The translations under genes and the position numbers were made by a program. From contig JAVCCH010000201.1 in the NCBI GenBank assembly GCA_030765535.1, positions 1 through 41,979 on the forward strand: 41,979 bases of DNA, written 5' to 3'. The stretch's first letter is position 1. Every line of letters starts with the position of its first letter. Of this stretch, positions 2,897-33,602 are shown in pieces. The stretch comes from Candidatus Tenebribacter davisii (GTDB taxonomy: Bacteria; Cloacimonadota; Cloacimonadia; Cloacimonadales; TCS61). The notes beneath the pieces are model-generated. The model was given only the letters and a program-made list of their open reading frames with translations, was not told the DNA's origin and did no database searches.

Positions 2897-2923
2897 TGTT
2901 AACCTCTCTTAAATCTATTTTTT

Positions 2924-3092
2924 TACCCGCGATACCGTGTATCACTTTCTTCTGGAACCTTGGAACAAGGTGGACGTCTACCGTTTTTTGCTTTACATAC
3001 CCAGATCATGTCTGGTTCATGCGCCACAAAGGGCCTGACTTCCTATTCATAATTGGTTCTGAATATCAACAATATCACGAATACCGCAGGCT
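2924..3092 (-). ncRNA. ssrS: 6S RNA (SsrS family)
   Basis: The 210-bp gap between zapA and rny reads on the minus strand as a roughly 170-nt rod. The 5' segment CCTGCGGTATTCGTG pairs with the 3' segment CACGGTATCGCGGG through about 13 bp with one bulged U. The apical part folds as nested TTTG/CAAA, CAT/ATG and CCAGA-CATGA-TCTGG helices. CCACCTTGTTCCAAGGTTC and TTGTGGCGC resemble the corresponding parts of E. coli 6S RNA, and position directly downstream of zapA is the classical ssrS location. 6S RNA mimics an open promoter and binds housekeeping RNA polymerase. Ends are approximate to a few bases. No terminator follows, so release from a zapA-rny transcript is likely. Confidence 0.87.
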
Positions 3093-3109
3093 ATTATTCT
3101 TTACCAAAT

Positions 3110-7731: not shown

Positions 7732-8334
7732 TTATTCTTCTATATTCTCATTTTCTTCTGAATCTTCTAATAAGCCATCAATATCTTTCTTGGGTGCAAT
7801 TATCGAAAATACTGTTCTTCCTTCATTCTTCGGCTTTACTTCAACATCAACAAGCAGTTTAAGGTCTTCTAGTATCCGTTCCAGTAATTTGAATCCTATA
7901 TCACGATGAGCAAGCTGTCTTCCACGAAAACGAACTGTCAGTTTTACTTTGTTGTGTTGGCTTAAGAATTTTAGAGCATGTACTTTCTTAAAATTATAAT
8001 CATGCTCTTCTGTGTTAGGACCAAATTTCACTTCTTTAGTTTGAACAATATGTTGATTCTTTCTTGCTTCCCGTAATTTTCGTTCCTTTTTGTAGTAGTA
8101 AGTACCAAAATCTAAGATCTTACATACTGGCGGTTTGGCATTTGGTGATACTTCTACCAGATCAAGCCCAGCTCTTTCAGCTTCTTGCAAAGCTCTTGAA
8201 ATTGGGACAACACCAATTTGTTCTCCTTTTTCAGAGATCAATCTCACAGATGGTACTCTGATCTGACCATTAATTCTTTCTTTTGGCGCTGTAGGCTTAG
8301 TTTTAGCCTTTCCTCTTCTAATGCGAATAGAAAT
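7732..8334 (-). CDS. infC: Translation initiation factor IF-3, AUU start
   Basis: The C-terminal domain (VQTKEVKFGPNTEEHDYNFK, KVKLTVRFRGRQLAHRDIG) and N-terminal domain (RINGQIRVPSVRLISEKGEQIGVV) are complete IF-3. The first conventional start in frame is GTG at 8247, but this lies inside the conserved N-terminal domain. Reading back, the frame stays open through RRGKAKTKPTAPKE to an in-frame TAA and contains no ATG, GTG or TTG. AAGGAGG sits 5 nt before an ATT codon at 8334, so AUU initiation giving 200 aa is the best model, as for E. coli infC, where IF-3 discriminates against its own AUU start. Other ATT codons at 8328 and 8322 are possible. Confidence 0.93.
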   Translation of the reverse strand: MSIRIRRGKAKTKPTAPKERINGQIRVPSVRLISEKGEQIGVVPISRALQEAERAGLDLVEVSPNAKPPVCKILDFGTYYYKKERKLREARKNQHIVQTKEVKFGPNTEEHDYNFKKVHALKFLSQHNKVKLTVRFRGRQLAHRDIGFKLLERILEDLKLLVDVEVKPKNEGRTVFSIIAPKKDIDGLLEDSEENENIEE

Positions 8335-8362
8335 ATGAACCTCCTTGTTCTTTAATTAAAAT

Positions 8363-8388
8363 AAAAAAAGGGTGGAATAAATCCACCC
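8363..8388 (-). terminator. Rho-independent attenuator upstream of infC
   Basis: On the minus strand GGGTGGA-TTTAT-TCCACCC (7 bp stem, 5-nt loop) is followed immediately by seven T. It lies 29 nt upstream of the infC AUU codon, inside the leader rather than after a gene, so it is best read as a regulated attenuator. Confidence 0.85.
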
Positions 8389-8490
8389 GCCATTACACTT
8401 TTATATAAAATTTCGCACTTTCTTTCGGACCTTAACAAGTATTCTTAATCTTTAAAGAAACCGTAAGGTAGAAGCGGGTAGCTTCTTTTT
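8363..8490 (-). promoter_or_regulatory. infC operon leader with attenuator (candidate L20-type leader)
   Basis: The minus-strand leader contains an upstream hairpin (8470-8486, AGAAGC-loop-GCTTCT) and a terminator just before infC (8363-8388). The loop-side segment CTACCCGC (8474-8481) can pair over 8 positions, one a G-U, with GCGGGTGG (8383-8390), the left arm of the terminator. The two folds are mutually exclusive, which is the logic of a terminator/antiterminator switch. Firmicute infC-rpmI-rplT leaders (L20 leader, Rfam RF00558) use this arrangement with L20 as ligand. Pairing is seen directly; the L20 role is an inference. Confidence 0.65.
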
Positions 8491-8504
8491 TATTAACAAG
8501 ATAC

Positions 8505-8533
8505 TAAAAATTTTCTATTTGTTAACGAGTCAA
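8505..8533 (-). promoter_or_regulatory. Candidate promoter of the infC operon
   Basis: TTGACT (8533-8528) is followed after 17 nt by TTTTTA (8510-8505) on the minus strand, just upstream of the leader hairpins. The -35 box is good and the -10 box is poor. The same TTGAC-N17-TTTTTAG pattern occurs before hppA. Confidence 0.4.
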
Positions 8534-8925
8534 GTTTTTTATTCTTTTAGCAGAATATAAAGCCAACAAATTTATTTTACTTTTGTTAATATAAATTTTT
8601 CGTAAATAATTTAAAGACATTTTTGTCATATATATGCCATAAATGTCATAATTTGCCATTTTGTCATCTTTTATTATGGTTGGATAGCTAACTCCCACAA
8701 TCATCTAACTCCTTGATTTCATTAATGTTTTGTAACATTTTATTTTGAGCTAATTAATTGTATTTAAATTGGATTATTTATTGCATATATATAATAAATA
8801 TATGTTATACATGAATTGGGAAATATAGGTAAATTGTAATGATATGAAGAAAGTACTTGTCAAATTAATGTCATTTACAACATTTATGTTTTCAAATTTG
8901 GAGAAATAAACAGAAAGGAGGCAAA
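8534..8925. other. Intergenic region between divergent units
   Basis: About 390 bp separate the infC promoter from the first small ORF of the peptide cassette. The region is very AT-rich. A 60-codon minus-strand reading frame (8522-8704) lacks a ribosome binding site and looks like chance. Apart from a candidate plus-strand promoter near 8769-8795, I see no conserved RNA structure; a c-di-GMP riboswitch was looked for because HD-GYP genes follow, and its core motifs were not found. Confidence 0.5.
8769..8798 (+). promoter_or_regulatory. Candidate promoter of the peptide cassette
   Basis: TTGGAT (8769-8774) is followed by TATAAT (8790-8795, 15-nt spacer) or TAATAA (17-nt spacer). It lies about 130 bp upstream of the first small ORF with a strong ribosome binding site. 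In such AT-rich DNA TATAAT-like strings are common, so this is tentative. Confidence 0.3.
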
Positions 8926-8994
8926 ATGAAAAGATTCTGTATTTCTAACTTTTTAGAAATAGCTTTTGTATTTACGTTCTTCAAATGTGTCTGA
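8926..8994 (+). CDS. 22-codon ORF with strong RBS; leader peptide or 5' piece of a frameshifted secreted protein
   Basis: ATG at 8926 has one of the best ribosome binding sites in the window (AGAAAGGAGG, 5 nt away). It encodes MKRFCISNFLEIAFVFTFFK plus Cys-Val and a stop. The basic start and hydrophobic core look like a signal peptide cut short. The downstream ORF 8985-9233 continues in the -1 frame and overlaps its end. It may be the N-terminal half of a frameshifted secreted protein or a short leader peptide; the sequence does not decide between them. Confidence 0.35.
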   Translation: MKRFCISNFLEIAFVFTFFKCV

Positions 8995-9233
8995 GATTAG
9001 ATAAACTAAAAATTGAAAAATATCAAATACAAAATTTATCCAAGCAGAATATTTTTGTTTTAGCTTCAAATAACAAAAGAAAATTAACACAAAATATAAA
9101 TATATCCCACAGTAATCAAACTATCATTAAAATTCCAATTTTTATAACCACAAGTGATAAATTATATTCATCCGGATTTGAATCCTCTAATATAAATAAT
9201 CGAATTTTGAAAAGTAAACTAATAATAAATTAA
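8985..9233 (+). CDS. 82-codon Asn/Ile/Lys-rich ORF, possibly the frameshifted body of a secreted protein
   Basis: The frame stays open for 82 codons in AT-rich DNA where chance stops are frequent, and ends 19 bp before the next gene of the cassette, as an operon member would. Its own ATG has no ribosome binding site and overlaps the end of the 22-codon ORF. Joining the two by one frameshift would give a protein of about 100 aa with a signal peptide. The product is polar and low in complexity (KLKIEKYQIQNLSKQNIF), and it lacks the AQGD motif of the two following genes. I recognise no family; decay, sequencing error or programmed shift are all possible. Confidence 0.35.
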   Translation: MCLRLDKLKIEKYQIQNLSKQNIFVLASNNKRKLTQNINISHSNQTIIKIPIFITTSDKLYSSGFESSNINNRILKSKLIIN

Positions 9234-9252
9234 AGATTTAAGGAGTGTTAAA

Positions 9253-9528
9253 ATGAAAAAGAATTTAAGTTTTTTCGTAGTTGCAGCTTTCATAATTTCA
9301 GTAATTTACGTTTTTGCTATTATCAATAGCAGTAATGATCTTTCAAATAATACTGTTTCAAAAAGTAACATTTGCACTGCTCAAGGTGACTTTATGCCAG
9401 CTCCGTATGAGCAAGTAATTGATGAAGAGATATCTATCGAAAAAAGAGTTCTGATCTGCAGTGCTCAAGGTGATGTAAGACCACCTGCATGGGATGAAGA
9501 AGAAAACGAAACCACAAGTGGAAGTTAA
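9253..9528 (+). CDS. Small secreted protein with two AQGD-P motifs (putative peptide precursor, short paralogue)
   Basis: The 91-aa product has a signal peptide (MKKNLSFFVVAAFIISVIY, likely cleavage after VFA at residue 22), a polar stretch, then two related motifs: CTAQGDFMPAPYEQ from Cys41 and CSAQGDVRPPAWDEE from Cys69. Start is ATG with AAGGAG 8 nt upstream. It aligns without gaps over the first 80 residues with the next gene, including both cysteines, and so is its unexpanded paralogue. It is acidic and has no catalytic domain. I know no described family with this motif. A secreted peptide precursor, a cell-surface ligand or an acidic cation-binding protein are all possible. Confidence 0.85.
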   Translation: MKKNLSFFVVAAFIISVIYVFAIINSSNDLSNNTVSKSNICTAQGDFMPAPYEQVIDEEISIEKRVLICSAQGDVRPPAWDEEENETTSGS

Positions 9529-9557
9529 AAAAAATTAAATAAAAAAGGAGAATCAAA

Positions 9558-10148
9558 ATGAAAAAGAATCTTGGTTTAATCGTATTAGTAGCAGCAGTAG
9601 TATCAGTAATTAATGTTTTTGCTATTGTTAATAGTAGTAATGACACATCAATCAAAGCAGTTGTAAAAAGTAATCTATGTACAGCTCAAGGTGACTTTAT
9701 GCCTGCTCCGTTCGAAGAGATTATAGTTGAAGAAAGCTCAAATGAAATCAATGGTAATATCTGTAGTGCTCAGGGTGATGTAAGACCACCATCATGGGAT
9801 GAAGAAGATAATGAAAAAATCACAGCAAGTGCTCAAGGTGATGTAAGACCACCATCATGGGATGAAGAAGATAATGAAAAAATCACAGCAAGTGCTCAAG
9901 GTGATGTAAGACCACCTTCATGGGATGAAAAAGATAATGAAAAAATCACAGCAAGTGCTCAAGGTGATGTAAGACCACCTTCATGGGATGAAAAAGATAA
10001 TGAAAAAATCACAGCAAGTGCTCAAGGTGATGTAAGACCACCATCATGGGATGAAGAAGATAATGAAAAAATCACAGCAAGTGCTCAAGGTGATGTAAGA
10101 CCACCATCATGGGATGAAGAAGAAGACAAAACAACGAGTGTATGTTAA
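9558..10148 (+). CDS. Secreted tandem-repeat protein, six SAQGDVRPPSWDE units (putative multi-copy peptide precursor)
   Basis: The 196-aa product has a signal peptide (MKKNLGLIVLVAAVVSVIN, likely cleavage after Ala22). A first divergent motif CTAQGDFMPAPFEE starts at Cys41. Six copies of SAQGDVRPPSWDE follow, starting at residues 70, 91, 112, 133, 154 and 175, separated by the linker (E/K)DNEKITA. The last copy ends in EEDKTTSVC. Only the first repeat keeps the preceding Cys69; later units have Ala. ATG has AAGGAG 7 nt upstream. The arrangement of a signal peptide plus identical short modules with a regular linker is typical of precursors cut into several copies of a peptide, but no processing site is proven and no modification enzyme is adjacent. 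Confidence 0.9.
   Translation: MKKNLGLIVLVAAVVSVINVFAIVNSSNDTSIKAVVKSNLCTAQGDFMPAPFEEIIVEESSNEINGNICSAQGDVRPPSWDEEDNEKITASAQGDVRPPSWDEEDNEKITASAQGDVRPPSWDEKDNEKITASAQGDVRPPSWDEKDNEKITASAQGDVRPPSWDEEDNEKITASAQGDVRPPSWDEEEDKTTSVC
9765..10145 (+). repeat. In-frame 63-bp tandem repeat, five full copies plus a variant sixth
   Basis: Each 63-bp unit (21 codons, beginning AGTGCTCAAGGTGATGTAAG) repeats from 9765 to 10079, with a diverged end unit to 10145. Units differ at only a few bases: CAG/CAA in unit 1, CCATCA/CCTTCA, and GAA/AAA in units 3 and 4 (DEE to DEK). Adjacent units 3 and 4 share the same changes, which suggests recent duplication by slippage or unequal exchange. Confidence 0.95.
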
Positions 10149-10167
10149 TTATAAAAGATAAAAATAA

Positions 10168-10836
10168 ATGATAGATTTCATTCAGCAATACGGCACAATA
10201 ATATTGCGCCCAATTACGTTAATTAGTTGGCTTTTTATTTATATAAAAACCAAGAACTCAAAATTTTCGAAATATAATATCACACTATTTATGATATTTC
10301 TTTTGATATTTATTATCTGGAATACTTTTGCACTTATATTCTCAGATTCTGTAATAATTGCTAGATACATTTATCTTTTCTTTTGGTTTACTGTAACGAT
10401 TTTTGAATTTTTCGTCATATTAAAGGCACTCTTTATTTCTCTTAATCTGGGGAAGAGTCAGAATAAAATATTAGTGATAATTTTGCTGATTTTATCAACT
10501 CCGGTCATTTTGGCTGCAATACTTTCACATACAAAAAGAACTTATAACCCAATAAATACAACTGATTTCTATAATATCATTTTGTTATTATGTGGAACTG
10601 TTGTCATACTAAGAAATATTTTGTCTATTGGGAATTTTGTAGAAAATGTTGAATCATTCTTCATTTTTTCAGGATTTGCCCTTTATTTTGGACTACACAT
10701 ATTAGCAACGAATACAGTTTCATTAAATTTTTACCATTATTGGTTTTTTGGACAATATGCAACATTGATCAGTTTAATATATTGGATAGGGAGTGTATTT
10801 TTTATATGGAAAATCAAATCCAAGCCTTTGTTTTAA
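10168..10836 (+). CDS. Seven-helix integral membrane protein, putative receptor module
   Basis: The 222-aa product is strongly hydrophobic, with seven likely membrane helices (about residues 9-27, 36-58, 62-90, 99-118, 134-150, 160-180 and 195-216) and short loops. It has no catalytic motif. Size and layout resemble the seven-helix N-terminal sensory regions found on bacterial histidine kinases and cyclases, but I cannot name a family. It starts 19 bp after the repeat protein with only a weak ribosome binding site, and its last 31 bp overlap the PAS-HD-GYP gene in the -1 frame. Context suggests it is the membrane input for that HD-GYP protein and possibly senses the secreted peptides. Confidence 0.85.
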   Translation: MIDFIQQYGTIILRPITLISWLFIYIKTKNSKFSKYNITLFMIFLLIFIIWNTFALIFSDSVIIARYIYLFFWFTVTIFEFFVILKALFISLNLGKSQNKILVIILLILSTPVILAAILSHTKRTYNPINTTDFYNIILLLCGTVVILRNILSIGNFVENVESFFIFSGFALYFGLHILATNTVSLNFYHYWFFGQYATLISLIYWIGSVFFIWKIKSKPLF

Positions 10837-11984
10837 TATCTTCAATTACATTGGCACTTTTCGTACTTATAAGTGTATATCTTATTATTAGGTTAAAGTT
10901 AAATGATATACTATTGAAGAGATCCGAAGGAAAACTCAAGAATTTTAATGAGACACTTCAATATATGGTTGCTGAAAAAACAGAAGAATTACAAATATCA
11001 GAGAAAAAATTTAAGAATTTATATGAGTTGAATAAAGAGGTACTAGAGAATTCACCTGCTGGAATAATCAAATTGAATAGAAAGCATGAAATAGAATTTT
11101 TGAATCATGAAAGTTTATCAATATTATTACCTGAAAACAAAAATCAGGATGATATGCTTGGACAATTAATTTCACAGATCCCACAGTTCAATAGAGCTGG
11201 ATGGGCAAGTCTATTGATCCAGTTAAAAAAAGGTAAGGAAATTGAAGGTGAAGAGACATTTATTCAACAAAGTAAAAAATCTATTGTTAAGGTTAAAGGA
11301 GTTCCGGTTTACGAAGAGGGAATTTATTCTGGAGCGGTACTTCTTCTCAATGATAATACTGAAAGTATCCTAGCTGAAGATAAATTAAAACAAAGCTTTA
11401 CAATGCTACAAAAAGCTACCGGAGATATTATCCAAGCTATGTCTTATACATCAGAGATAAGAGATCCATATACTGCAGGTCATCAAAAAAAGGTAGCCGA
11501 ACTTGCTGTTGCTATAGGTAAAGAGATGAACATTAATGAGGAACAATTGCAAGGTGTCAAATTTGCGGCAATGATACACGATATTGGCAAGATCTCAGTT
11601 CCGTCTGATATTCTATCAAAACCGGGAAAAATTGGTAAAACAGAATTTGAAGTAGTAAAAGGACATAGTCAAACTGGATACGAGCTTCTTGATAAAATTA
11701 ACTTTCCATGGCCTATATCAATTATTGTTTATCAACATCATGAAAAACTAGATGGAAGTGGATATCCAAATGGTTTAAAAGGAGACGAAATTTTACTTGA
11801 AGCAAAGATCATTGCAGTTGCAGATACGGTAGAGGCAATGACCTCTCATCGTCCATATAGACCAGCGTTAGGTATTGACAAAGCTCTTGATGAGATCATA
11901 ACGAACAAGGGAAGGTTATATGAACCAGCAGTTGTTGATGCTTGCGTTCACTTGTTTAAACAAGGGTTTAAATTTACAAATTAA
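10806..11984 (+). CDS. PAS-HD-GYP protein, putative c-di-GMP phosphodiesterase
   Basis: From ATG at 10806 the protein has 392 aa: one membrane helix (about 8-28), a coiled coil (about 38-80), a PAS domain (about 85-200) and an HD-GYP domain (about 220-385). The HD-GYP signatures are present: RDPYTAGHQKKVAELA, MIHDIGKISVPSDILSKPGK, QHHEKLDGSGYPNGLKGDEI and HRPYRPALGIDKAL. HD-GYP enzymes hydrolyse cyclic dinucleotides, usually c-di-GMP. A frame open back to 10740 gives 22 more residues, but ATG 10806 begins cleanly before the helix. GGGAG lies 12 nt upstream, a long spacing. Overlap with the seven-helix gene suggests coupled translation and a two-protein receptor-effector. Confidence 0.93.
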   Translation: MENQIQAFVLISSITLALFVLISVYLIIRLKLNDILLKRSEGKLKNFNETLQYMVAEKTEELQISEKKFKNLYELNKEVLENSPAGIIKLNRKHEIEFLNHESLSILLPENKNQDDMLGQLISQIPQFNRAGWASLLIQLKKGKEIEGEETFIQQSKKSIVKVKGVPVYEEGIYSGAVLLLNDNTESILAEDKLKQSFTMLQKATGDIIQAMSYTSEIRDPYTAGHQKKVAELAVAIGKEMNINEEQLQGVKFAAMIHDIGKISVPSDILSKPGKIGKTEFEVVKGHSQTGYELLDKINFPWPISIIVYQHHEKLDGSGYPNGLKGDEILLEAKIIAVADTVEAMTSHRPYRPALGIDKALDEIITNKGRLYEPAVVDACVHLFKQGFKFTN

Positions 11985-12001
11985 ATATAAAAGGATGTTT
12001 T

Positions 12002-14062
12002 TTGATTCATAAAATTTATATCGTAATTATTATAATATTTATTGGTATTTTTTTGAATGCTTTGACTATTCCGTATTCTGATAAACCACTTATCTCAGAT
12101 CAAAATCAAATAAATGATTTCCTTTGCAGTATCCCACCCGATTCAACTAAAATTGAACTAGAAACAAAATGCTGGATCTGGCATGATAATAATTATCTAA
12201 ATATTTATTGGGAAGCTGAAACTGATGAAAATTTTATTATTGGTAAATATTCTTCTAATGATGTATCAGCCCAAGCTGATCAACTTTCTGTACAGATAAT
12301 AACTGATCTTACGAATTATTACTCTTATGGATTTATGGCATATCCACTTGAAAATAAAACTGATTTTGTCCGTTCTTTTTCACATGACATAAATTATGAT
12401 TGGAATAGTAATTACGAATACTCATCTACTAATCAGAATTCTAAATGGACTGTAATGATGAAAATCCCATTTAAAGATCTAAGATTTAATGGGAAACCAC
12501 CTTATCATTGGAAAATTATCCTGTCTCGTTATCTAAAAAATGACGATAAACATTACATAGTCCCATATATAACAGCACAAATGGGAAAAGACTATTTTAG
12601 AGATGCAATAGATATCACTATCAATGAAGAAATTCGAAATAATAGTAACTTTTATATTCGACCCTTTTCAATTATAAAAGCTGATCTGCTTGATAAGAAA
12701 ATTCAGTTTGATTCTGAAAGTTTTGGACTTGATTTTTCCCTTAAACCGACTTCTTCTACAAAATTGAAATTAACATACAATCCTGATTTTTCAGATATTC
12801 CAATAGATGATGAAACTAATGATTTTAATTCTAAATATGCTCCATCTTATGCTGAGAATAGATATTTCTTTATTAAAGATTTCAATGTCTTAGGCGTGAA
12901 TTCAACAACCTTCTATTCACGTCAAATTGTACAACCGGATTTTGCGGTTAAATTCACCGGAAAAACAGGTAATTTAACTTATGGAGCATTATCTTCAAAA
13001 GTAAAACAAGTAGCTAATTCATCTGGTTTTATTGTAAACTCCAAAGATATTTATAACATTGTTGCAGTAAAACCAGCGACAGATCATTTCAACCTCCAAT
13101 TTACAATTTTAAACAGAATGAATGAAAATTATCATAATGAAGTACTTCACATAAAACCGAATTGGGAATTTATCAAAGACCAATGTCTTTGGTTTGATAT
13201 AAATCTTTCAACAAAGAAATCAATTGGAGAAAAACATAAAAATGGTTATTATGGAATAGCTGGATATGATTATAAAAATGATGAGTTCAGCTTCACAATG
13301 AGTGCAACACAAATGAGTAAAAATTACTCAGTAGATATGGGAAAGATCTATGAAGATGATTATTATGGTTGGAACTTTTATTCAACACTTAGAAAAGAAT
13401 TTATTAATAAATTTTTCCGTTCGATCACAACTAATATTAATACCAGTGAAGAAATCAACAATACAACTAGTAAACTTTTAGAACGATATGCCCGGTTTGC
13501 TTTAAATCTCAATTCCAATAATAATTTTGATATTGATTTTTATGGCACTTCAGTAAAAGAATTATCTTCTGATAAATATTTTGACAAGTATCATGTTTGC
13601 TTGCAATTAACTTGGGAAAAATCAAACTTGATTAAATCCTTTTTTGGTTTTAGTTATGTAAACGATCTTATTTACAAATTGAATGATGATTATAAAGCTC
13701 GCTATCTCCAATTCGGTATACGTGGAGTTATTGATAAATATTTTTCTTATATAATTACAGCCGATAACATATTTTATTTTAACTTACAAGAAACTGAAAT
13801 TGTCGATGATAATTATTGGTTATCAAATATTGATATTTCCTTTAGCCTATCAAATGATCTAAGTCTTACAAGCGGTATTCGATTTAATAATTATGAGACA
13901 TCTGATCATTCTCAACACATAGGAATATTTTCAAATCTTCGTTGGCAGTTTTTAAAGCAAAGTCATATTTACCTGGGTTATAATTCCGCTAACAATAAAA
14001 TAAATGGAAAAAATGAATTTAATTATCAACAAGCATATTTCAAGATTTCTTATTTATTTTGA
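12002..14062 (+). CDS. CBM9-like / DUF5916 outer-membrane beta-barrel protein
   Basis: The 686-aa protein has an N-terminal signal segment (about 1-21), a CBM9-like beta-sandwich (about 40-210, with IYWEAETDENF and WTVMMKIPFKDLRF), then a long outer-membrane-type barrel of the DUF5916 kind. The junction YNPDFSDI, then ENRYFFIKDF and FYSRQI, is characteristic of that family. The C terminus ends in alternating aromatic residues (AYFKISYLF) like other barrels. Start is TTG at 12002 with AAAGGA 8 nt upstream. It follows the HD-GYP gene by 17 bp, so it is probably in the same transcript. Function of DUF5916 barrels is unknown; transport of a carbohydrate or, here, passage of the peptides are possibilities. 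Confidence 0.85.
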   Translation: MIHKIYIVIIIIFIGIFLNALTIPYSDKPLISDQNQINDFLCSIPPDSTKIELETKCWIWHDNNYLNIYWEAETDENFIIGKYSSNDVSAQADQLSVQIITDLTNYYSYGFMAYPLENKTDFVRSFSHDINYDWNSNYEYSSTNQNSKWTVMMKIPFKDLRFNGKPPYHWKIILSRYLKNDDKHYIVPYITAQMGKDYFRDAIDITINEEIRNNSNFYIRPFSIIKADLLDKKIQFDSESFGLDFSLKPTSSTKLKLTYNPDFSDIPIDDETNDFNSKYAPSYAENRYFFIKDFNVLGVNSTTFYSRQIVQPDFAVKFTGKTGNLTYGALSSKVKQVANSSGFIVNSKDIYNIVAVKPATDHFNLQFTILNRMNENYHNEVLHIKPNWEFIKDQCLWFDINLSTKKSIGEKHKNGYYGIAGYDYKNDEFSFTMSATQMSKNYSVDMGKIYEDDYYGWNFYSTLRKEFINKFFRSITTNINTSEEINNTTSKLLERYARFALNLNSNNNFDIDFYGTSVKELSSDKYFDKYHVCLQLTWEKSNLIKSFFGFSYVNDLIYKLNDDYKARYLQFGIRGVIDKYFSYIITADNIFYFNLQETEIVDDNYWLSNIDISFSLSNDLSLTSGIRFNNYETSDHSQHIGIFSNLRWQFLKQSHIYLGYNSANNKINGKNEFNYQQAYFKISYLF

Positions 14063-20450: not shown

Positions 20451-23042
20451 ATGCGAAAATATCTAATACTCTTTGTTGTTTCCTGCCTGGCTAGCATGTT
20501 AACAGCTGGAACTAGAATTGATAGCTTAGAAGTTTATTTAAATACAGCCGAACAAAATGAAAAGGTTGCTATTTTAAATGAGCTGTCACAGGCATATCAA
20601 GAAATTTCCGTACGTAAAAGTATCGAGTTTGCCCAAACTGCCCTTCAATTAGCTCAAGAGTCAGAGATTAAGGAAGATATTGCTGAATCATTTGCTACTT
20701 TAGGCTCATCATACTATTTTCTCAGTAATTACAAAAAAGCATTAGAGTATCATTCCAGCGCCCTTGAATTATATCAGCAGCTGGCTATTAAACACGGCAT
20801 GTTAATGACAAACAACTATATTGGTCTAGATCATGAGAAACTTGGGAATTATGATAAAGCTTTAGATTTTTTTCTAATCTCTTTAAAAATAAGCAATGAA
20901 ACGTCAGACCAAAACGGTATTAGTTTGGGTCTCAATAACTTAGGTAATCTTTACCATTCAATAAAAAATTATGATAAGGCACTGGATTATTATCAGCAAG
21001 CCTTTAAAATTGAGAAAACTGCCGGAAATCAAAAAACTATTTCAACCGCGCTGAATAACATTGGAACTGCCTTGATGGATAATGGAGATTATACACAAGC
21101 CTTAGAATATTATAATCAATCATTAAAGATAGAACAACAACTTGGCAATGTCAAAGGAATTTCATCAGTTCTATGTAATCTGGGAATTATTCATGAAAAA
21201 ATAAATGAATATGATAAAGCAATAACATATTTCAATAGATCGCTTGATCTCATACTTGAAACTGGTAATCAATATGGAATTGCTGTTACATTTATCAATA
21301 TTGGTAAATTACAATTGCGTATGAACAACCTGACAGATGCTTATGCCAGTATTAACCAAGGTCTTACATTTGCTACAAATATTGGTGCAAAACAACTAAT
21401 TATGAAAGGTTATCTTGCCTTATCAGATTTCTATAAGATCAAACAAAATAATGATGAGTCATTACATTATTTTAAACTATATTCAAACCTCAAAGACGAG
21501 ATATTTAATGATGAAATGACGCAAAAAGTCACAAATATTCAAAAACAATTTGAAGCTGAAGAACGGGAGCATGACCTTGTAAGTCTGGGAAATAAAAATC
21601 AGATAATGAAGCTCAAAGCTGAAAAAAGAAAATTACATTTATTACTACTATTGACAAGTCTATTTATTACTAGTGGTTTCACAATTTACTTATTCACTCG
21701 ATATAAAAACAAAAACACAAATAATAAATTACTACAGAGAGAGATCCTTGATAGAATATCAGCTGAGAAAAGATTAATTAAAAGACTTAAAATAGAAAAA
21801 GTTGTATCCAAGATCTCATCCAGGTTCATTAATGTTTCAGATTTCGATTCAGCTATAGATGAAACACTTATGAATATCGGAAAAATGTGCGGCGCTAGCA
21901 GATCTTATCTATTCTTACTTGATAACAATAAGAATACCATTGATAATACTCATGAATGGTGTAATGACGAAGTGCAATCTCAAATAAGTAATCTTCAAGA
22001 TATTCCTGTAGATTCATTACCCTGGTGGATGGCAAAATTGGAAAACGATGAAGTTATCCATATTCCTAATGTTTCTAAAATGTCTTCAGAGGCACATAAG
22101 GAAAAAATATTTTTACAGCAACAAAACATCAAATCCATATTAGTATTACCTTTAAGATCTTCAGATCATCTGATAGGATTTATGGGCTTTGATAATGTAT
22201 CAAAAGCTGAAGAATGGAAAGAAGAAGAACTTTCATTGCTAAGAATCTCAACTGAGATCCTCGGGGTATATTTTGATAAGAGAACAATTGATTCAAAATT
22301 AGAAAAAGCATATTTTGGCTTAGAAAAACGTGTGCATGATAGGACACGGGAATTAGCAGAGACAAATCATGAATTACAGGTTGAAGTAACAGAGAGGAAA
22401 AGAGTTGAAATTCAACTTAATGATAGTTTTCTCAGACTAAAAAAAGCAATTGAAGAAACCATAAGTGCCTTTATTTCTGCAGTTGAAATTCGTGATCCAT
22501 ATACTGCTGGTCATCAACTTCGAGTTGCAAAATTAAGTTGTGAAATTGCAAATGGAATGAAATTGAGTAAAATGCAATTAGATGCAATACGAATTGCAGC
22601 TATTCTTCATGATATCGGAAAAATTTATATTCCAAATGAAATACTATCAAAACCATCTAAACTCACTGAAACTGAGTTTAGCGTAATCAAGAACCACCCT
22701 CTGGCTGGTTATGATATACTCAAAACTATAGATTTTCAAATGCCCATTGCTAAAATTGTCTATCAACATCATGAAAAAATCAATGGTTCAGGTTATCCTC
22801 AAGGACTTATTGGAAATGAGATCATGCTGGAAGCAAGGATCGTGAATGTCGCTGATGTTGTTGATGCAATGATCTCACATCGTCCTTATCGTTCTTCACA
22901 TGGCATTGATGAGGCTCTTGACGAGATCAAGACAAATGCTGGAATATTATATGATCCTGAAGTGGTTGATGTTTGCCTGGATCTATTCAATGAAAAAGGT
23001 TTCCAATTCGAAGAGATCAAAATTAGAACTGCACCAAGATAA
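20451..23042 (+). CDS. TPR-GAF-HD-GYP sensor, putative c-di-GMP phosphodiesterase
   Basis: The 863-aa protein has a signal peptide (about 1-19), roughly seven TPR units in the periplasm (about 40-350; repeated YDKALDYY/YNQSLKIE patterns), a short coiled coil, one membrane helix (about 393-415, LLLLTSLFITSGFTIYLF), a cytoplasmic GAF domain (about 450-610), a second coiled coil and a C-terminal HD-GYP domain (about 670-855) with RDPYTAGHQLRVAKLS, ILHDIGKIYIPNEILSKP and QHHEKINGSGYPQGLIGNEI. A ligand or protein sensed by the TPR part would thus control cyclic-dinucleotide hydrolysis. The HD-GYP domain is closely similar to those at 10806 and 23084. Confidence 0.95.
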   Translation: MRKYLILFVVSCLASMLTAGTRIDSLEVYLNTAEQNEKVAILNELSQAYQEISVRKSIEFAQTALQLAQESEIKEDIAESFATLGSSYYFLSNYKKALEYHSSALELYQQLAIKHGMLMTNNYIGLDHEKLGNYDKALDFFLISLKISNETSDQNGISLGLNNLGNLYHSIKNYDKALDYYQQAFKIEKTAGNQKTISTALNNIGTALMDNGDYTQALEYYNQSLKIEQQLGNVKGISSVLCNLGIIHEKINEYDKAITYFNRSLDLILETGNQYGIAVTFINIGKLQLRMNNLTDAYASINQGLTFATNIGAKQLIMKGYLALSDFYKIKQNNDESLHYFKLYSNLKDEIFNDEMTQKVTNIQKQFEAEEREHDLVSLGNKNQIMKLKAEKRKLHLLLLLTSLFITSGFTIYLFTRYKNKNTNNKLLQREILDRISAEKRLIKRLKIEKVVSKISSRFINVSDFDSAIDETLMNIGKMCGASRSYLFLLDNNKNTIDNTHEWCNDEVQSQISNLQDIPVDSLPWWMAKLENDEVIHIPNVSKMSSEAHKEKIFLQQQNIKSILVLPLRSSDHLIGFMGFDNVSKAEEWKEEELSLLRISTEILGVYFDKRTIDSKLEKAYFGLEKRVHDRTRELAETNHELQVEVTERKRVEIQLNDSFLRLKKAIEETISAFISAVEIRDPYTAGHQLRVAKLSCEIANGMKLSKMQLDAIRIAAILHDIGKIYIPNEILSKPSKLTETEFSVIKNHPLAGYDILKTIDFQMPIAKIVYQHHEKINGSGYPQGLIGNEIMLEARIVNVADVVDAMISHRPYRSSHGIDEALDEIKTNAGILYDPEVVDVCLDLFNEKGFQFEEIKIRTAPR

Positions 23043-23083: not shown

Positions 23084-23692
23084 ATGGAAAAGATTGTAAA
23101 TGCTCTTATCGCAGCAATTGAGATATGGGATCCGTATACTGCCGGACATCAAAAAAGAGTTGCAACTTTAAGTCTGGCTATATCAAGAGAAATGGGATTT
23201 AAGCAAAAACGGTTAGATACTATGAGAATAGCTTCCCTTCTACATGATATCGGCAAAATCAATCTTCCTACAGAAATTTTATGTAAACCCGGGAAGTTAG
23301 CTACATGCGAATTTAATCTTATGAAAATTCACTCTGAAGCGGGATACCAAATATTAAAGAAGATCCACTTTCCTGATAAAATCGCTAATATTGTTCTGCA
23401 ACATCATGAATCTTCGGATGGAAGCGGGTATCCTCACGGATTGAAAGGTGATGAAATTTGTATTGAGGCTAAGATTTTACATATTGCCGATGTAGTAGAA
23501 GCTATTTCAGCAAACAGACCGTATCGTCCAGCATATGAAATTAATGAAGCATTAGCGGAAATTGAAAATGATACTGACGGGAAGTATGATCCAGTTGCTC
23601 GTGATATATGCTTGGATCTATTCAGATCAAAAAATTTCCAGATTAAAGAAATCCAAATGAGAGATGTTGAAAGATCGAAAAAAAAAGGGTAA
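23084..23692 (+). CDS. Stand-alone HD-GYP domain protein
   Basis: The 202-aa protein is almost only an HD-GYP domain: WDPYTAGHQKRVATLS, LLHDIGKINLPTEILCKPGK, QHHESSDGSGYPHGLKGDEI and NRPYRPAYEINEAL are intact, so metal binding and cyclic-dinucleotide hydrolysis are expected. It has no sensor, receiver or membrane segment. It starts 41 bp after the TPR-GAF-HD-GYP gene and matches the C-terminal domain of that gene throughout, including the ending (YDPxxxDxCLDLF), so it is probably a partial duplicate of its neighbour. Start is ATG at 23084, preceded by TTTGGAG. Confidence 0.92.
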   Translation: MEKIVNALIAAIEIWDPYTAGHQKRVATLSLAISREMGFKQKRLDTMRIASLLHDIGKINLPTEILCKPGKLATCEFNLMKIHSEAGYQILKKIHFPDKIANIVLQHHESSDGSGYPHGLKGDEICIEAKILHIADVVEAISANRPYRPAYEINEALAEIENDTDGKYDPVARDICLDLFRSKNFQIKEIQMRDVERSKKKG

Positions 23693-24846: not shown

Positions 24847-25788
24847 TTGTCAGTTCTAAATATTGAGATTAAGGCAAAATGTAAATATCCAAACAACATT
24901 CGTAAAATACTCATTAATAGAAACGCCATTTTTAAAGGTACCGATAATCAAAAAGACACCTATTTTAATGTCCGAAACGGCCGTCTTAAAATACGTGAAG
25001 GCAACATTGAAAACAGCCTTGTTCATTACGATAGAGAAGATATCTCCGGTCCAAAACGTTCAGATGTCCTATACTATCAACCCAGGAAAGAAGATCTTGT
25101 AAAGCAACAACTTATTAAAGCAATTGGCACTCTGGTCATTGTTAATAAGAAAAGAGAAATCTATTATATCGATAACATTAAATTCCATATTGATGAAGTT
25201 GAAGAATTAGGCAGTTTCGTGGAAATTGAAGCTATTGATAAAACCGGCAATATTGGTAGTGAAAAACTCTATGAACAATGTAAAGAATATTTAGCTCTAT
25301 TTAAAATTCAAGATGAGGACCTGATAAACAACTCTTATAGTGATATGATCCTTAATAAAGATCTGAAGATTACTGAAGGTACCATAAAACAGGCAGTAGC
25401 AATATCGAAACAGATACCTGAATTTATTCATCCTTATGAAAAGGATGAATATGAAAAGAGATTGTTAAATAAAACATATCTCATTCTCATTGCACTTTGG
25501 AAAAACATACCTGCTGGATTTACGGCTGGTTATCAGGTAGATGATCATTTCTATTACTGGATGGGGGGAGTTATCCCGGAATTCAGAGAGAAGAAAATAG
25601 CGACTGAACTAGCTCACTTTCAGCAAAACTGGGCAAAAGAAAAGGGATTTAAACTCATTAAAATGAAAACAAGGAATAAACACATCATTATGCTTAGATT
25701 CGCTTTAGCTGATGGATTTAACATTACTGGTATAAAAACACAGGATGATCTAAAAGAAAATAGAATATTTCTGGACAAAGAACTCTAA
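24847..25788 (+). CDS. CYTH (CyaB-like) and GNAT acetyltransferase fusion protein
   Basis: The 313-aa protein joins two domains. Residues about 1-170 are CYTH, with the CyaB-type start LNIEIKAKC, DTYFNVRNGRLKIREG, YDREDISGPKRSD and late acidic strands (FHIDEVEELGSFVEIEA), a tunnel fold that binds triphosphates or nucleotides. Residues about 175-313 look like a GNAT domain (LIALWKNIPAGFTAGY, WMGGVIPEFREKKIATEL as the acetyl-CoA loop region, then WAKEKGFKLIKMKT). Start is TTG at 24847, 6 bp after the desulfurase stop. Substrate of neither domain can be read from sequence. Confidence 0.85.
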   Translation: MSVLNIEIKAKCKYPNNIRKILINRNAIFKGTDNQKDTYFNVRNGRLKIREGNIENSLVHYDREDISGPKRSDVLYYQPRKEDLVKQQLIKAIGTLVIVNKKREIYYIDNIKFHIDEVEELGSFVEIEAIDKTGNIGSEKLYEQCKEYLALFKIQDEDLINNSYSDMILNKDLKITEGTIKQAVAISKQIPEFIHPYEKDEYEKRLLNKTYLILIALWKNIPAGFTAGYQVDDHFYYWMGGVIPEFREKKIATELAHFQQNWAKEKGFKLIKMKTRNKHIIMLRFALADGFNITGIKTQDDLKENRIFLDKEL

Positions 25789-29816: not shown

Positions 29817-32800
29817 ATGATTACATTATTCAAAAAATATTTAATGCCAATTATGCTAATCTGCAGTATCAAATCTTCAGTATTGGCTGATGAGAATATC
29901 CTGCTGGAAATTCCGCATAATTTCTTGAAAGGAATATTAGAAGCTAATTATAAAGAGATTCCTTTTGATGAATTCTTTCCATTAAACAGTGTTGCAATTC
30001 CACAACCCGACTACCCAAACAGAAAAGAACATCCCTACCTTTTATTCAAACATGAGAATCTAAATATAATTCATAAAAGATTTCAACGTGAACCCTATCG
30101 CAACTGGGCAGAGCATATGATCGATCTGGCACAATCTTATAACTATAACCTTACCTCTCCTTTATTATACGAGTTCAAAAGGAGTAATGCAGCTAAAGCT
30201 AATGCTTTTGCCTATTTCCTAACTTCCGATAATGATTTTTTGGAAACTGCAAAAGTTGCCCTATTAAATATTGGAGACACATTCCCTCCTACAACTCCCG
30301 AAGGTCAGGAATCGCAAGTTGGTTGGGGAGATTGGTTGAAAGCTGCACAATCACTCAGGAATTTTGCAGTTGCGTATGACCTGATCTATTGGGAATTTAA
30401 TGAAGATGAGCGGGGAAAAATTGAAACACAATTGATCAAACAAGTTGAACAGCATCACCGATATTTCAGAAAATTCCCAAACAACTTCAGCAGAAATGAA
30501 ATTGCTTCAGGTCTTGGTATACCTCAAAATAATCATATTATTGAAATTGCTACAGGAGTAGCAACTGCATGCCTGGTATTGGATGACAGAAAAGCTAAGC
30601 GATATTTTGATGATGCCATCAAAGAACTTCAACATGGACTCGCTATGATCGATGTAGATGGTTCATACCGTGAAGGTGCATATTATGGAAGATATGTTGC
30701 TTCCATACTTTTCCCATTTGCTCATTATTTAAATAACTCCACTGGTACAAATATTTTTAAAGCCCCGCGATTAAACAGATATATTCGCTGGTTGATAGAT
30801 ATCGAAAAACCTGATGGCAGTGTTCCTCTCTTTGATGATGCATTTAATCATTCATTTCTTTTTCAACCTTTAGGTTCTGGTCTAACGGAATACGAAAATG
30901 AACTTTTATACTTATTTGAAAATAATCAAGAAAATTTTTACTCTAATGATCTGAAATATATTGATTTATTTTGTGGTTTTGATGACAAGACTTTTCCCAT
31001 TAAACCTGATTATGATTCAGCTCTATTTTATCCAGATGGAGGAATGTCTATATTCCGGGGTAAAGACAATATCTACGCACTTTTATTAGGTGAACCAGGT
31101 AGAAAAAATGATGTTCATCACGATCATTCCGAACCTGGTGCATTTACCTTATCTTCATCCAATAAGGATTTCTTAATTGATTGCGGATATGGTATAGGTG
31201 GAGTGGATGATGTGAATAGAGATTGGTATACTTCTGCTCAAGCTCATAATATTCCTTTAGTTAATGGACTCGGACCTAATCTCAATCCTGTTTGGGGAGA
31301 TAATCTAACCAGTGAAATGTGTGACTATTTTGGGTCAGAACAATTTTCTGTTTCAACAGTTAAATCAAATTATAGAGGAGCCGATCTTACTCGTTCAATC
31401 TGGTTTACCAATCAGTCATATTTCATTGTACTTGATGAATTTGAATCTAATAAAAAGAAGAGATATTCAATCCCATGGCATGGATTGGGAACACTTGTGA
31501 AGAGAAGTCAAACAAGTGCTAAATGGATTCAGGATGAATCTTGTCTTGATCTCGAATTCATGTCCACAGATGACACAGCACTTCTATTTTCTCAAAAAAC
31601 AGGACTGCATACAAAGCAAGTTTTTGATTTTGAGCATCAGATCCTGGAAGCAAAGCTGCCTGTTGCAAAAGAAAATAAATTAATTTCCATTTTCATTCCG
31701 AATCAAATTGATCAGGATCAAATCCGAGTTGTTGACCTTGAAGTTATTTCAAATGGAAATGTGAATGCCAGGATAGTTAATGATAATAATTGGCAAGATC
31801 ATATAATTTTAGCTGATTCCGTATGGCAATGCAGAAGTGTAAAGAGTGATGCAGAAATTGCTGTCATCCATAAAAATGATTTTGAAGAAATTGAATATTT
31901 TTCTGCAAAGAATGTAACCTTCTTCGAAATTGACAATAATGAGATCTTCAGAGCTGATAAACCAATTGATATTACCTTGAATCTGGTTGATACCGGCTGG
32001 TTTGGTTACCTTGATTCCAAAAGTGAAGCTTCTAATTTCATTGAGCTTTATCCATCCTATAATCAAGGATTCATGATCTTTAATAAAAAAATAGTTGAAT
32101 TTGAAGATTCAACTTGTTTGTTCGTAACATCGGAAAGTGGAGTTTTTGATTTCAATCCTTCTAAAAATGAGATTTACACAACTGAAATATTTAGACCATA
32201 TTATCCCATGCTGAATTCACTAGAATTCTCACATAATCCTCAAACTGAGCTGAGTGATATGAATCACTTCAAAAAAATCCAACTGCGAAACGAGATCACA
32301 GCTCTTACAGGAGAAGCTGCCATTAGTTTAGCTGATTCCATAATGAATTATCCTTTAAAAAATCTTTACGGTATCACGACCGGAATTATCAATAGTGCCT
32401 GGAATGCAGCGGAGAGCTTCATAGTCAACTTGCCGCAATCCTTCAAGTTAGAGCGAGATATTGCCGGGAAAAATATTTCCTATTTCGAAGAAGGTCATAT
32501 CACTGATAAAGGTTTATCAACTAGATTCCATAGATTTGAAATTGAAAACACACTCTATTTACAACAGGAAAATTATTTTAAGGATCATCATTATACTGCT
32601 GTCGAATTAAATTATCAAAAATATCATCTCTATGCTGATCGTGAAAAATATAAGAAAGATATTGATTACCAGATTGCCTTTGATAGATATTTTAATAATG
32701 GAAGTATTGAATTGCAGCATAACAGAGAGAAAGAAAAGGAGAACAGAAACGGGATCTTTTTGCAAGTGAATAATTGGAACAGTAATGCCATCTGGAGCCA

Positions 32801-33602
32801 AACTGGATCAGTATATGATTATAATTTCATGTTATCCAAAAGTGGCAGGAGATTCAGTTTTGACCTGATTAGTGATACTAACTCAACTGATAACCGGCAG
32901 AATTTATCTTTTTCAAATTCCTTCCTGATCTCCAAGAATATTCTACTCAGTTCAGGTTTTAGAAGAGCTGGGACAGAAAAAGATATGACCGAGAGTTATA
33001 ATTCCAGGCTTCATTATTATATTAATAATTTTTCAGGATCATTCTCAACTAACAAACTTCCTAAACAAAATCACAAATTTAATTGGCGAGTAAAGTATAG
33101 TTACAAAAAACTCAGGGTTGAACATCTTGGTGAATATCAAAATATATCGAGTGGAGATTTTAAGCTAAGCTACCGTGGGAAAAGATTTTCCGGGTATGAT
33201 CAGCTTATTAAGGGAAAAACAAACCAATTCAAGCTAGCATATAATCCCAGGAAAAACTGGTCAGCTAATACCGGATTTGAACTTGATCTGATTGATAAGG
33301 ATATCAGCCGGATCTCAGGTGGTTTTCATTTGAATAAATACATCCGCATGGGAATAGACTTTACTCATTCCTTGGATAGAGTAAATGAATGGCTGGGAAT
33401 TTGCTGGATTCTAGATTGCAACATATTCAAGAATGAATCAGTGAATATTTACACGAACACCTACTTAAATGATGAGAAGAAAATCACATATTATGAAGTT
33501 CAAATAAGCCAGAGAGGACACAACTACTCTCCAGGAATTAAGATCAAAAAAGATCAACGCGGGTTCCTCACTGGTGAAGGATATATTTGCTGGGAATTTT
33601 AA
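29817..33602 (+). CDS. Heparinase II/III-like polysaccharide lyase with barrel-like C-terminal region
   Basis: This 1261-aa protein has a signal peptide (about 1-24), an alpha/alpha toroid (about 60-340) and a heparinase II/III-like beta-sandwich (about 385-640). Likely active-site residues are in IPQNNHIIEIATG, SYREGAYYGRY and NDVHHDHSEPGAFTL. A middle part (about 640-920) follows, and then about 300 residues of short amphipathic strands (about 930-1261) ending YICWEF. The strand pattern and terminal Phe look like an outer-membrane barrel, which would anchor the lyase at the surface. Typical family members are far shorter. The polysaccharide substrate is unknown, and no transporter or sulfatase is adjacent. 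Confidence 0.85.
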   Translation: MITLFKKYLMPIMLICSIKSSVLADENILLEIPHNFLKGILEANYKEIPFDEFFPLNSVAIPQPDYPNRKEHPYLLFKHENLNIIHKRFQREPYRNWAEHMIDLAQSYNYNLTSPLLYEFKRSNAAKANAFAYFLTSDNDFLETAKVALLNIGDTFPPTTPEGQESQVGWGDWLKAAQSLRNFAVAYDLIYWEFNEDERGKIETQLIKQVEQHHRYFRKFPNNFSRNEIASGLGIPQNNHIIEIATGVATACLVLDDRKAKRYFDDAIKELQHGLAMIDVDGSYREGAYYGRYVASILFPFAHYLNNSTGTNIFKAPRLNRYIRWLIDIEKPDGSVPLFDDAFNHSFLFQPLGSGLTEYENELLYLFENNQENFYSNDLKYIDLFCGFDDKTFPIKPDYDSALFYPDGGMSIFRGKDNIYALLLGEPGRKNDVHHDHSEPGAFTLSSSNKDFLIDCGYGIGGVDDVNRDWYTSAQAHNIPLVNGLGPNLNPVWGDNLTSEMCDYFGSEQFSVSTVKSNYRGADLTRSIWFTNQSYFIVLDEFESNKKKRYSIPWHGLGTLVKRSQTSAKWIQDESCLDLEFMSTDDTALLFSQKTGLHTKQVFDFEHQILEAKLPVAKENKLISIFIPNQIDQDQIRVVDLEVISNGNVNARIVNDNNWQDHIILADSVWQCRSVKSDAEIAVIHKNDFEEIEYFSAKNVTFFEIDNNEIFRADKPIDITLNLVDTGWFGYLDSKSEASNFIELYPSYNQGFMIFNKKIVEFEDSTCLFVTSESGVFDFNPSKNEIYTTEIFRPYYPMLNSLEFSHNPQTELSDMNHFKKIQLRNEITALTGEAAISLADSIMNYPLKNLYGITTGIINSAWNAAESFIVNLPQSFKLERDIAGKNISYFEEGHITDKGLSTRFHRFEIENTLYLQQENYFKDHHYTAVELNYQKYHLYADREKYKKDIDYQIAFDRYFNNGSIELQHNREKEKENRNGIFLQVNNWNSNAIWSQTGSVYDYNFMLSKSGRRFSFDLISDTNSTDNRQNLSFSNSFLISKNILLSSGFRRAGTEKDMTESYNSRLHYYINNFSGSFSTNKLPKQNHKFNWRVKYSYKKLRVEHLGEYQNISSGDFKLSYRGKRFSGYDQLIKGKTNQFKLAYNPRKNWSANTGFELDLIDKDISRISGGFHLNKYIRMGIDFTHSLDRVNEWLGICWILDCNIFKNESVNIYTNTYLNDEKKITYYEVQISQRGHNYSPGIKIKKDQRGFLTGEGYICWEF

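Follow-up and report, generated by a model that had tools for sequence, protein, structure and literature searches.

A tandem peptide array encoded beside a seven-helix membrane protein and a sensor: a candidate peptide-signalling module in Cloacimonadota

Why should one small bacterial gene encode the same short peptide several times over? This question is raised by a contig of 41,979 nucleotides (JAVCCH010000201.1, hereafter the window) from a 3.0-Mb metagenome-assembled genome (MAG) of Candidatus Tenebribacter davisii, in which near-identical 63-bp coding repeats at positions 9765-10145 had been proposed to reflect copy-number change of a peptide module. Because the repeat resides in a probably exported precursor, beside the genes of a membrane protein with seven helices and of a signalling enzyme, the locus looks like a peptide-signalling system that has not been described. 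Peptide pheromones are known mainly from Bacillota, whereas Cloacimonadota is a little-studied phylum for which our literature search found no description of peptide pheromones or peptide signalling among the papers listed. A conserved module of this kind would give these uncultured anaerobes a testable signalling system.

The repeat array and its precursor genes

Tandem Repeats Finder reports a forward-strand array at 9765-10123 with a period of 63 bp, 5.7 copies, a 98% match and a score of 683, compared to a score of 66 for the next best array in the window. Unit comparison extends this to six units (9765-10142), each combining the peptide core SAQGDVRPPSW (core 2) with an acidic spacer (DEEDNEKITA). 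Since 63 bp equal 21 codons, the units stay in frame within the ORF at 9558-10148, termed precursor gene 2, which we recognized from the ORF list and from its homologs in the family. Its 196 amino acids begin with a hydrophobic N-terminal segment (MKKNLGLIVLVAAVVSVINVFAIV), followed by a single Cys-containing core 1 (CTAQGDFMPAPF, 9678-9713) that is related to core 2 and lies ahead of the array. The product is probably a small, exported protein that repeats one short peptide up to six times. A tandem paralog with 64% identity, precursor gene 1 (9253-9528, forward strand), precedes it and was found through the ORF list and a family profile match. This 91-amino-acid protein likewise has a hydrophobic N-terminal segment and one core 1 (ICTAQGDFMPAPY, 9373-9408, starting at Cys41), and it carries core 2 as a single copy (CSAQGDVRPPAWDEE, 9457-9501). 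The region from infC to the first precursor gene (8250-9252) is about 1 kb of AT-rich sequence with no convincing gene. A promoter scan gave sites no more frequent than in shuffled sequences.

The unit-by-unit comparison agrees with the earlier description of five full units and one variant. Units 1, 2 and 5 translate as SAQGDVRPPSWDEEDNEKITA, and units 3 and 4 do so with one E-to-K replacement. At the DNA level, units 2 and 5 are identical, and unit 1 departs from unit 2 by a single silent change (CAG/CAA). Units 3 and 4 are also identical to each other, and they differ from units 2 and 5 at two bases, one a silent core change (CCA to CCT) and the other the GAA to AAA linker change that produces the E-to-K replacement common to both. 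Unit 6 retains the core and has a diverged 3ˊ end (EEDKTTSVC, then stop). Variation among units 1 to 5 thus amounts to two silent changes and one linker replacement, and the view that the motif is constant while the linker carries the changes is correct for the protein and fails for the DNA, where the motif has two silent changes.

For a short-read MAG, it must be considered whether such an array was created by duplication or collapse of units during assembly. Contigs do end in or next to the precursor genes in 12 of 27 related genomes, whereas contig density would predict 2.6 (simulated P about 1e-5, for a 900-bp region that we chose and with breaks that were counted by hand). However, these breaks suggest that units have been undercounted rather than invented. 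No exact repeat in the array is longer than 112 bp, a length within reach of 150-base reads, and the units carry variants that distinguish them. Moreover, independent assemblies of other species contain like arrays with different unit sequences. We regard an artefactual array as very unlikely and the units and their variants as real coding sequence, with the reservation that exact counts in short-read MAGs are uncertain. Additional identical units may be hidden by collapse in the window, and, given the frequency of breaks at this site, copy numbers from MAGs, including the six units reported here, are probably lower bounds.

Copy number and conservation among relatives

Searches at E≤1 yielded precursor matches in 27 of 40 genomes of the same taxonomic family, one of which (G026, E=0.002) was discarded as an unrelated protein, an 86-amino-acid frame in an ABC-type locus. 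In a profile search of 125 genomes of the phylum, precursors are present in 30, with 26 in the family of the window (f1) and four in a second family (f13). All named relatives recovered with the precursor profile are Candidatus Cloacimonadota. A core-1 pattern scan of one genome per species of GTDB r220, which reaches only members that keep the pattern, likewise found relatives in Cloacimonadota only. Comparison of the precursor with Pfam, NCBIfam and PADLOC peptide families gave chance-level matches. We rejected a PADLOC match to Csf3 (E=2e-4), which lies over the low-complexity repeat. Neither the precursor nor the adjacent seven-helix protein found a match in viral contigs.

Copy-number change of the peptide module, as originally proposed, is supported by these relatives. 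Within the genus of the window, the number of core-2 units is not fixed, with one unit in four genomes, three in another and six in the window, and other genera have up to five. In one pair of genomes (G011 and G013), the genes align closely except for one exact in-frame 105-bp unit. Unit length also differs among lineages (63, 66, 75, 78, 96 or 105 bp), and the spacer between cores ranges widely, from about 10 to 24 amino acids. Units inside one gene are nearly identical and share species-specific silent changes, whereas spacers are acidic and variable. Most cores resemble others in the same gene more than their best match in another genus, with exceptions among close genera (G002, G003 and G004). 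Near-identity within genes together with lineage-specific unit length is what repeated local duplication and homogenisation would be expected to produce. Whole precursor genes have also been tandemly duplicated in relatives, and no case of an amplified core 1 was present among the precursors seen. Most members are about 90 amino acids long and have two cores only. A conserved module would also offer a natural series of peptide copy numbers, from 1 to 6 or more, with which to ask whether the dose of a gene-encoded peptide is selected.

Two individual loci deserve mention. One G039 precursor paralog beside infC (L091, 53-379, minus strand) has lost core 1 and shares an identical core 2 with the second gene; it looks as though core 2 alone were selected or converted. 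In G035 (L093, 3-353), a core-2 unit at the contig start has TAG in place of the Trp codon, reflecting either an assembly error or a real nonsense change.

Among 20 aligned precursors, the invariant positions are C41, A43, Q44, G45, D46 and P49. Some more distant members lose the AQ of AQGD (for example, CGIFGDIKP in G019 and STTGDIKP in G006), yet retain GDxxPxP. In repeated units, Cys can be replaced by Ala and the units persist. In most units, [C/A]-x-A before QGD could be read as a signal-peptidase-like site, but we do not claim this because not every member keeps A and Q. A comparison of motif and linker positions by dN/dS had been proposed at the outset, and between genomes of the genus it was carried out as pN/pS. 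The ratios are 0.034 for core 1 and 0.116 for core 2, whereas the leader reaches 0.32 and the spacer that separates the cores 0.36; because silent sites approach saturation in some parts, these values compare proportions rather than exact rates. The cores are under strong purifying selection, and the leader and spacer are less so.

A linked three-gene module

In f1, the order of genes is infC (divergent), one or more precursors, a gene that we call TM7, a sensor gene, a gene for a 686-amino-acid protein and a NuoE-like gene. TM7 (10168-10836, forward strand) starts 19 bp after precursor gene 2 and encodes a 222-amino-acid membrane protein that is a candidate peptide receptor. It has no match among Pfam, NCBIfam and PDB sequences. 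An AF2 model of low confidence (mean pLDDT 61.8, pTM 0.45) predicts seven helices, and a Foldseek search with this model placed rhodopsin and GPCR chains on top without a significant structural match (best E=0.57, probability 0.82, rmsd 13.8). Lys and Arg residues number eight on the C-terminal side and three on the N-terminal side, which suggests an N-out/C-in topology. The loop after helix 4, predicted to be outside on the periplasmic side, holds the invariant residues of YxPxNxTDF.

The sensor gene (10806-11984, forward strand) overlaps TM7 by 31 bp. Its product has one transmembrane segment, a PAS-like region (Pfam PAS_9, E=0.03, below cut-off) and an HD-GYP domain (HD_5, E=2.4e-37), with intact HD and GYP motifs in the translation (HDIGK...GHS...QHHE...GYP, the last as GSGYP). 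Most genera have an HD-GYP end, whereas HisKA_2/HATPase takes its place in five genomes (G016, G017, G018, G022 and G023) and the sensors of f13 end in kinase domains. The first 90 residues remain alike across this swap. That the output domain is exchanged while these residues and TM7 are retained points to the transmembrane segment of the sensor as a probable interface with TM7. Two further HD-GYP genes are found in the window at 20451-23042, 10 kb away from the module and with TPR and GAF regions, and at 23084-23692.

Linkage of the precursors, TM7 and the TM-PAS sensor, ending in either HD-GYP or HisKA_2, is firmly established. In every case where a precursor and TM7 are on one contig, in f1 and f13 alike, they are adjacent and on the same strand. 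In f13 (L071-L074), the three genes are still together, and their flanking genes are unrelated to those of f1. The 686-amino-acid protein (12002-14062, forward strand), predicted by eye to be of the outer-membrane type, lies outside this minimal module, as it is linked in f1 only and is present without the module in two genomes (G025 and G027).

The same genes also tend to be present or absent together. Precursor and TM7 are both present in 28 of the 125 genomes and both absent from 92, with precursor alone in two and TM7 alone in three (Fisher P=3e-22, without correction for relatedness). The TM-PAS segment occurs in exactly the 31 genomes that have TM7, once in each; in one genome (G014), TM7 is represented by two pieces on separate contigs. 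Both precursor-only genomes (G024 and G033) have their precursor loci at contig ends. Among the TM7-only genomes, G005 has a precursor fragment at a contig start, the contig of G118 is cut off inside TM7, and G124 has TM7 broken into three pieces, with no precursor found. The broken homolog in G124 (L141, 5841-6488, minus strand) has the appearance of joint decay of the pair. Five complete-looking genomes (G008, G020, G021, G025 and G027) have other genes after infC and lack all three module genes. For two others counted as lacking the module (G032 and G012), the contig ends just after infC, and thus the absence may be an assembly gap.

A candidate signalling mechanism and its alternatives

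We propose, with a probability of roughly 0.55, that the module is a peptide-pheromone system with a multi-copy precursor that feeds c-di-GMP or two-component signalling. The N-terminal hydrophobic segment would insert the precursors in the inner membrane or direct their export across it. Periplasmic or extracellular proteolysis would then yield short proline-rich peptides built on [A/C]xAQGD-hydrophobic-[M/K/R]-P-x-P-[F/Y/W], each precursor giving a single core-1 peptide and at least one, in some cases several, core-2 peptides. These peptides might bind the adjacent TM7 protein from outside. TM7 would in turn act through the start of the third protein, with its transmembrane segment and coiled coil, and so switch the output domain, which in this lineage is an HD-GYP c-di-GMP phosphodiesterase and in other lineages a HisKA_2 histidine kinase. 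Expansion and contraction of the array, along with duplication of whole precursors, would change the peptide dose and leave its identity constant. Export, processing, binding, the direction of the signal and a social role are what we infer from the sequences. The near-identical, conserved cores between variable acidic spacers favour this reading, as do the adjacency and co-occurrence of the precursor, TM7 and the TM-PAS segment, the exchange of output domains behind a constant TM7, the invariant periplasmic-side loop of TM7 and the precedent of multi-copy propeptides in Bacillota. Counting against it, all members do not share any one processing site, no exporter or maturation protease is linked to the module, and the model of TM7 is of low confidence and gave no significant structural match. 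Multi-copy release would also not be universal, given that most members have two cores only.

The strongest rival, which we nonetheless consider unlikely, is that the precursor is never cut. Its N-terminal segment could be a signal anchor, and the PxP cores would bind TM7 in the same membrane as a multivalent ligand that clusters or inhibits it, with more units giving more avidity. The protein would then be a co-sensor and not a pheromone. The linkage and conservation data fit this explanation too, two cores are enough for bivalency in most members, and neither a conserved protease site nor an exporter gene is present. However, near-identical repeats with fast-changing acidic spacers resemble multi-copy propeptides, and the wide variation in spacer length also counts against a tethered ligand. 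Precursor and TM7 distances remain correlated after removal of infC distance (partial r=0.51, P=6e-4, 13 loci); this fits the pheromone and the uncut-ligand explanations alike, and its cause may be a shared position on the chromosome and not binding.

There is little to recommend a precursor of a RiPP-like modified peptide or bacteriocin, with the seven-helix protein serving in immunity, export or processing and the sensor regulating production. The leader and repeated core layout and the conserved Cys would suit such a role, but repeated units that exchange Cys for Ala persist, the peptide families of NCBIfam, Pfam and PADLOC gave no match, no modification enzyme is encoded in the window, no ABC peptidase-transporter adjoins the genes there, and neither is present among the family matches in the conserved cassettes. 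It is about as hard to believe that the repeat belongs to a structural or surface protein whose gene lies before the sensor operon by chance, with copy number drifting by slippage. In-frame tandem repeats do drift easily, and the contig breaks indicate instability or multiple copies. Nevertheless, linkage to TM7 survives a complete change of flanks in f13, the two genes are present or absent jointly across the 125 genomes, and members of about 90 amino acids with two cores are too small to form a fibre.

Returning to the pheromone reading, several known systems invite comparison. In Agr, ComXPA and ComCDE, a peptide gene lies beside a polytopic membrane receptor with a signalling output; a single protein serves there as receptor and kinase, the precursor is single-copy, and the system usually has its own processing enzyme or exporter. 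In the present module, the 222-amino-acid seven-helix protein is separate from the sensor rather than fused to a histidine kinase, HD-GYP is a frequent output and the one found in the window, and no AgrB- or ComQ-type processing or modifying enzyme is encoded among the ORFs at 8500-14062 or in the conserved cassettes. The NVEALA and GG-leader peptides of Bacteroidota are short precursors with a hydrophobic N-terminus about 20 amino acids before a conserved A-x-G-[DE]. Their leader layout is similar, whereas the partners and repeated cores found here are different. NVEALA profiles of Pfam and NCBIfam were not among the matches at E≤10 for 20 precursor members, and our literature search found no paper on NVEALA.

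Bacillota are known to encode multi-copy pheromone propeptides (PMC9765709, PMC11343458). Those of RRNPPA systems contain up to six copies of one mature peptide (PMC9765709), and some are processed to active pheromones outside the cell (PMC11343458). The Phr propeptides of these systems (NprR, Rap, PlcR and AimR; PMC9765709, PMC11343458) share with the present locus a small, multi-copy precursor adjacent to the receptor, a hydrophobic N-terminus predicted to be an export signal ahead of repeated cores, and, in some cases, dissimilar copies or neighbouring propeptide genes. However, the RRNPPA receptor is a cytosolic TPR protein of Bacillota, and Pfam searches of this operon reveal no adjacent TPR receptor; the next genes encode the integral seven-helix protein and the TM-PAS-HD-GYP sensor of a diderm phylum. 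Because the type of receptor differs, the resemblance is one of layout and not of membership. LytS-type BtsS and 7TMR-DISM proteins (PMC10653868 and general knowledge) also use seven helices to control a kinase or c-di-GMP enzyme, whereas TM7 is a stand-alone protein of 222 amino acids, matches no Pfam family and has a peptide gene as its partner. We tentatively suggest, at somewhat less than even odds, that Cloacimonadota have a system of their own kind, with multi-copy proline-rich peptides, a stand-alone seven-helix receptor, interchangeable c-di-GMP and histidine-kinase outputs, and a dose tuned by array length.

Elsewhere in the window, a 1261-amino-acid protein (29817-33602) has a heparinase II/III-like C-terminal domain, after which comes a long stretch that matches no Pfam family. 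A single ORF at 24847-25788 joins a CYTH domain to a GNAT acetyltransferase domain. On the minus strand, a 6S RNA is located at 2920-3095 (RF00013, 67.3 bits).
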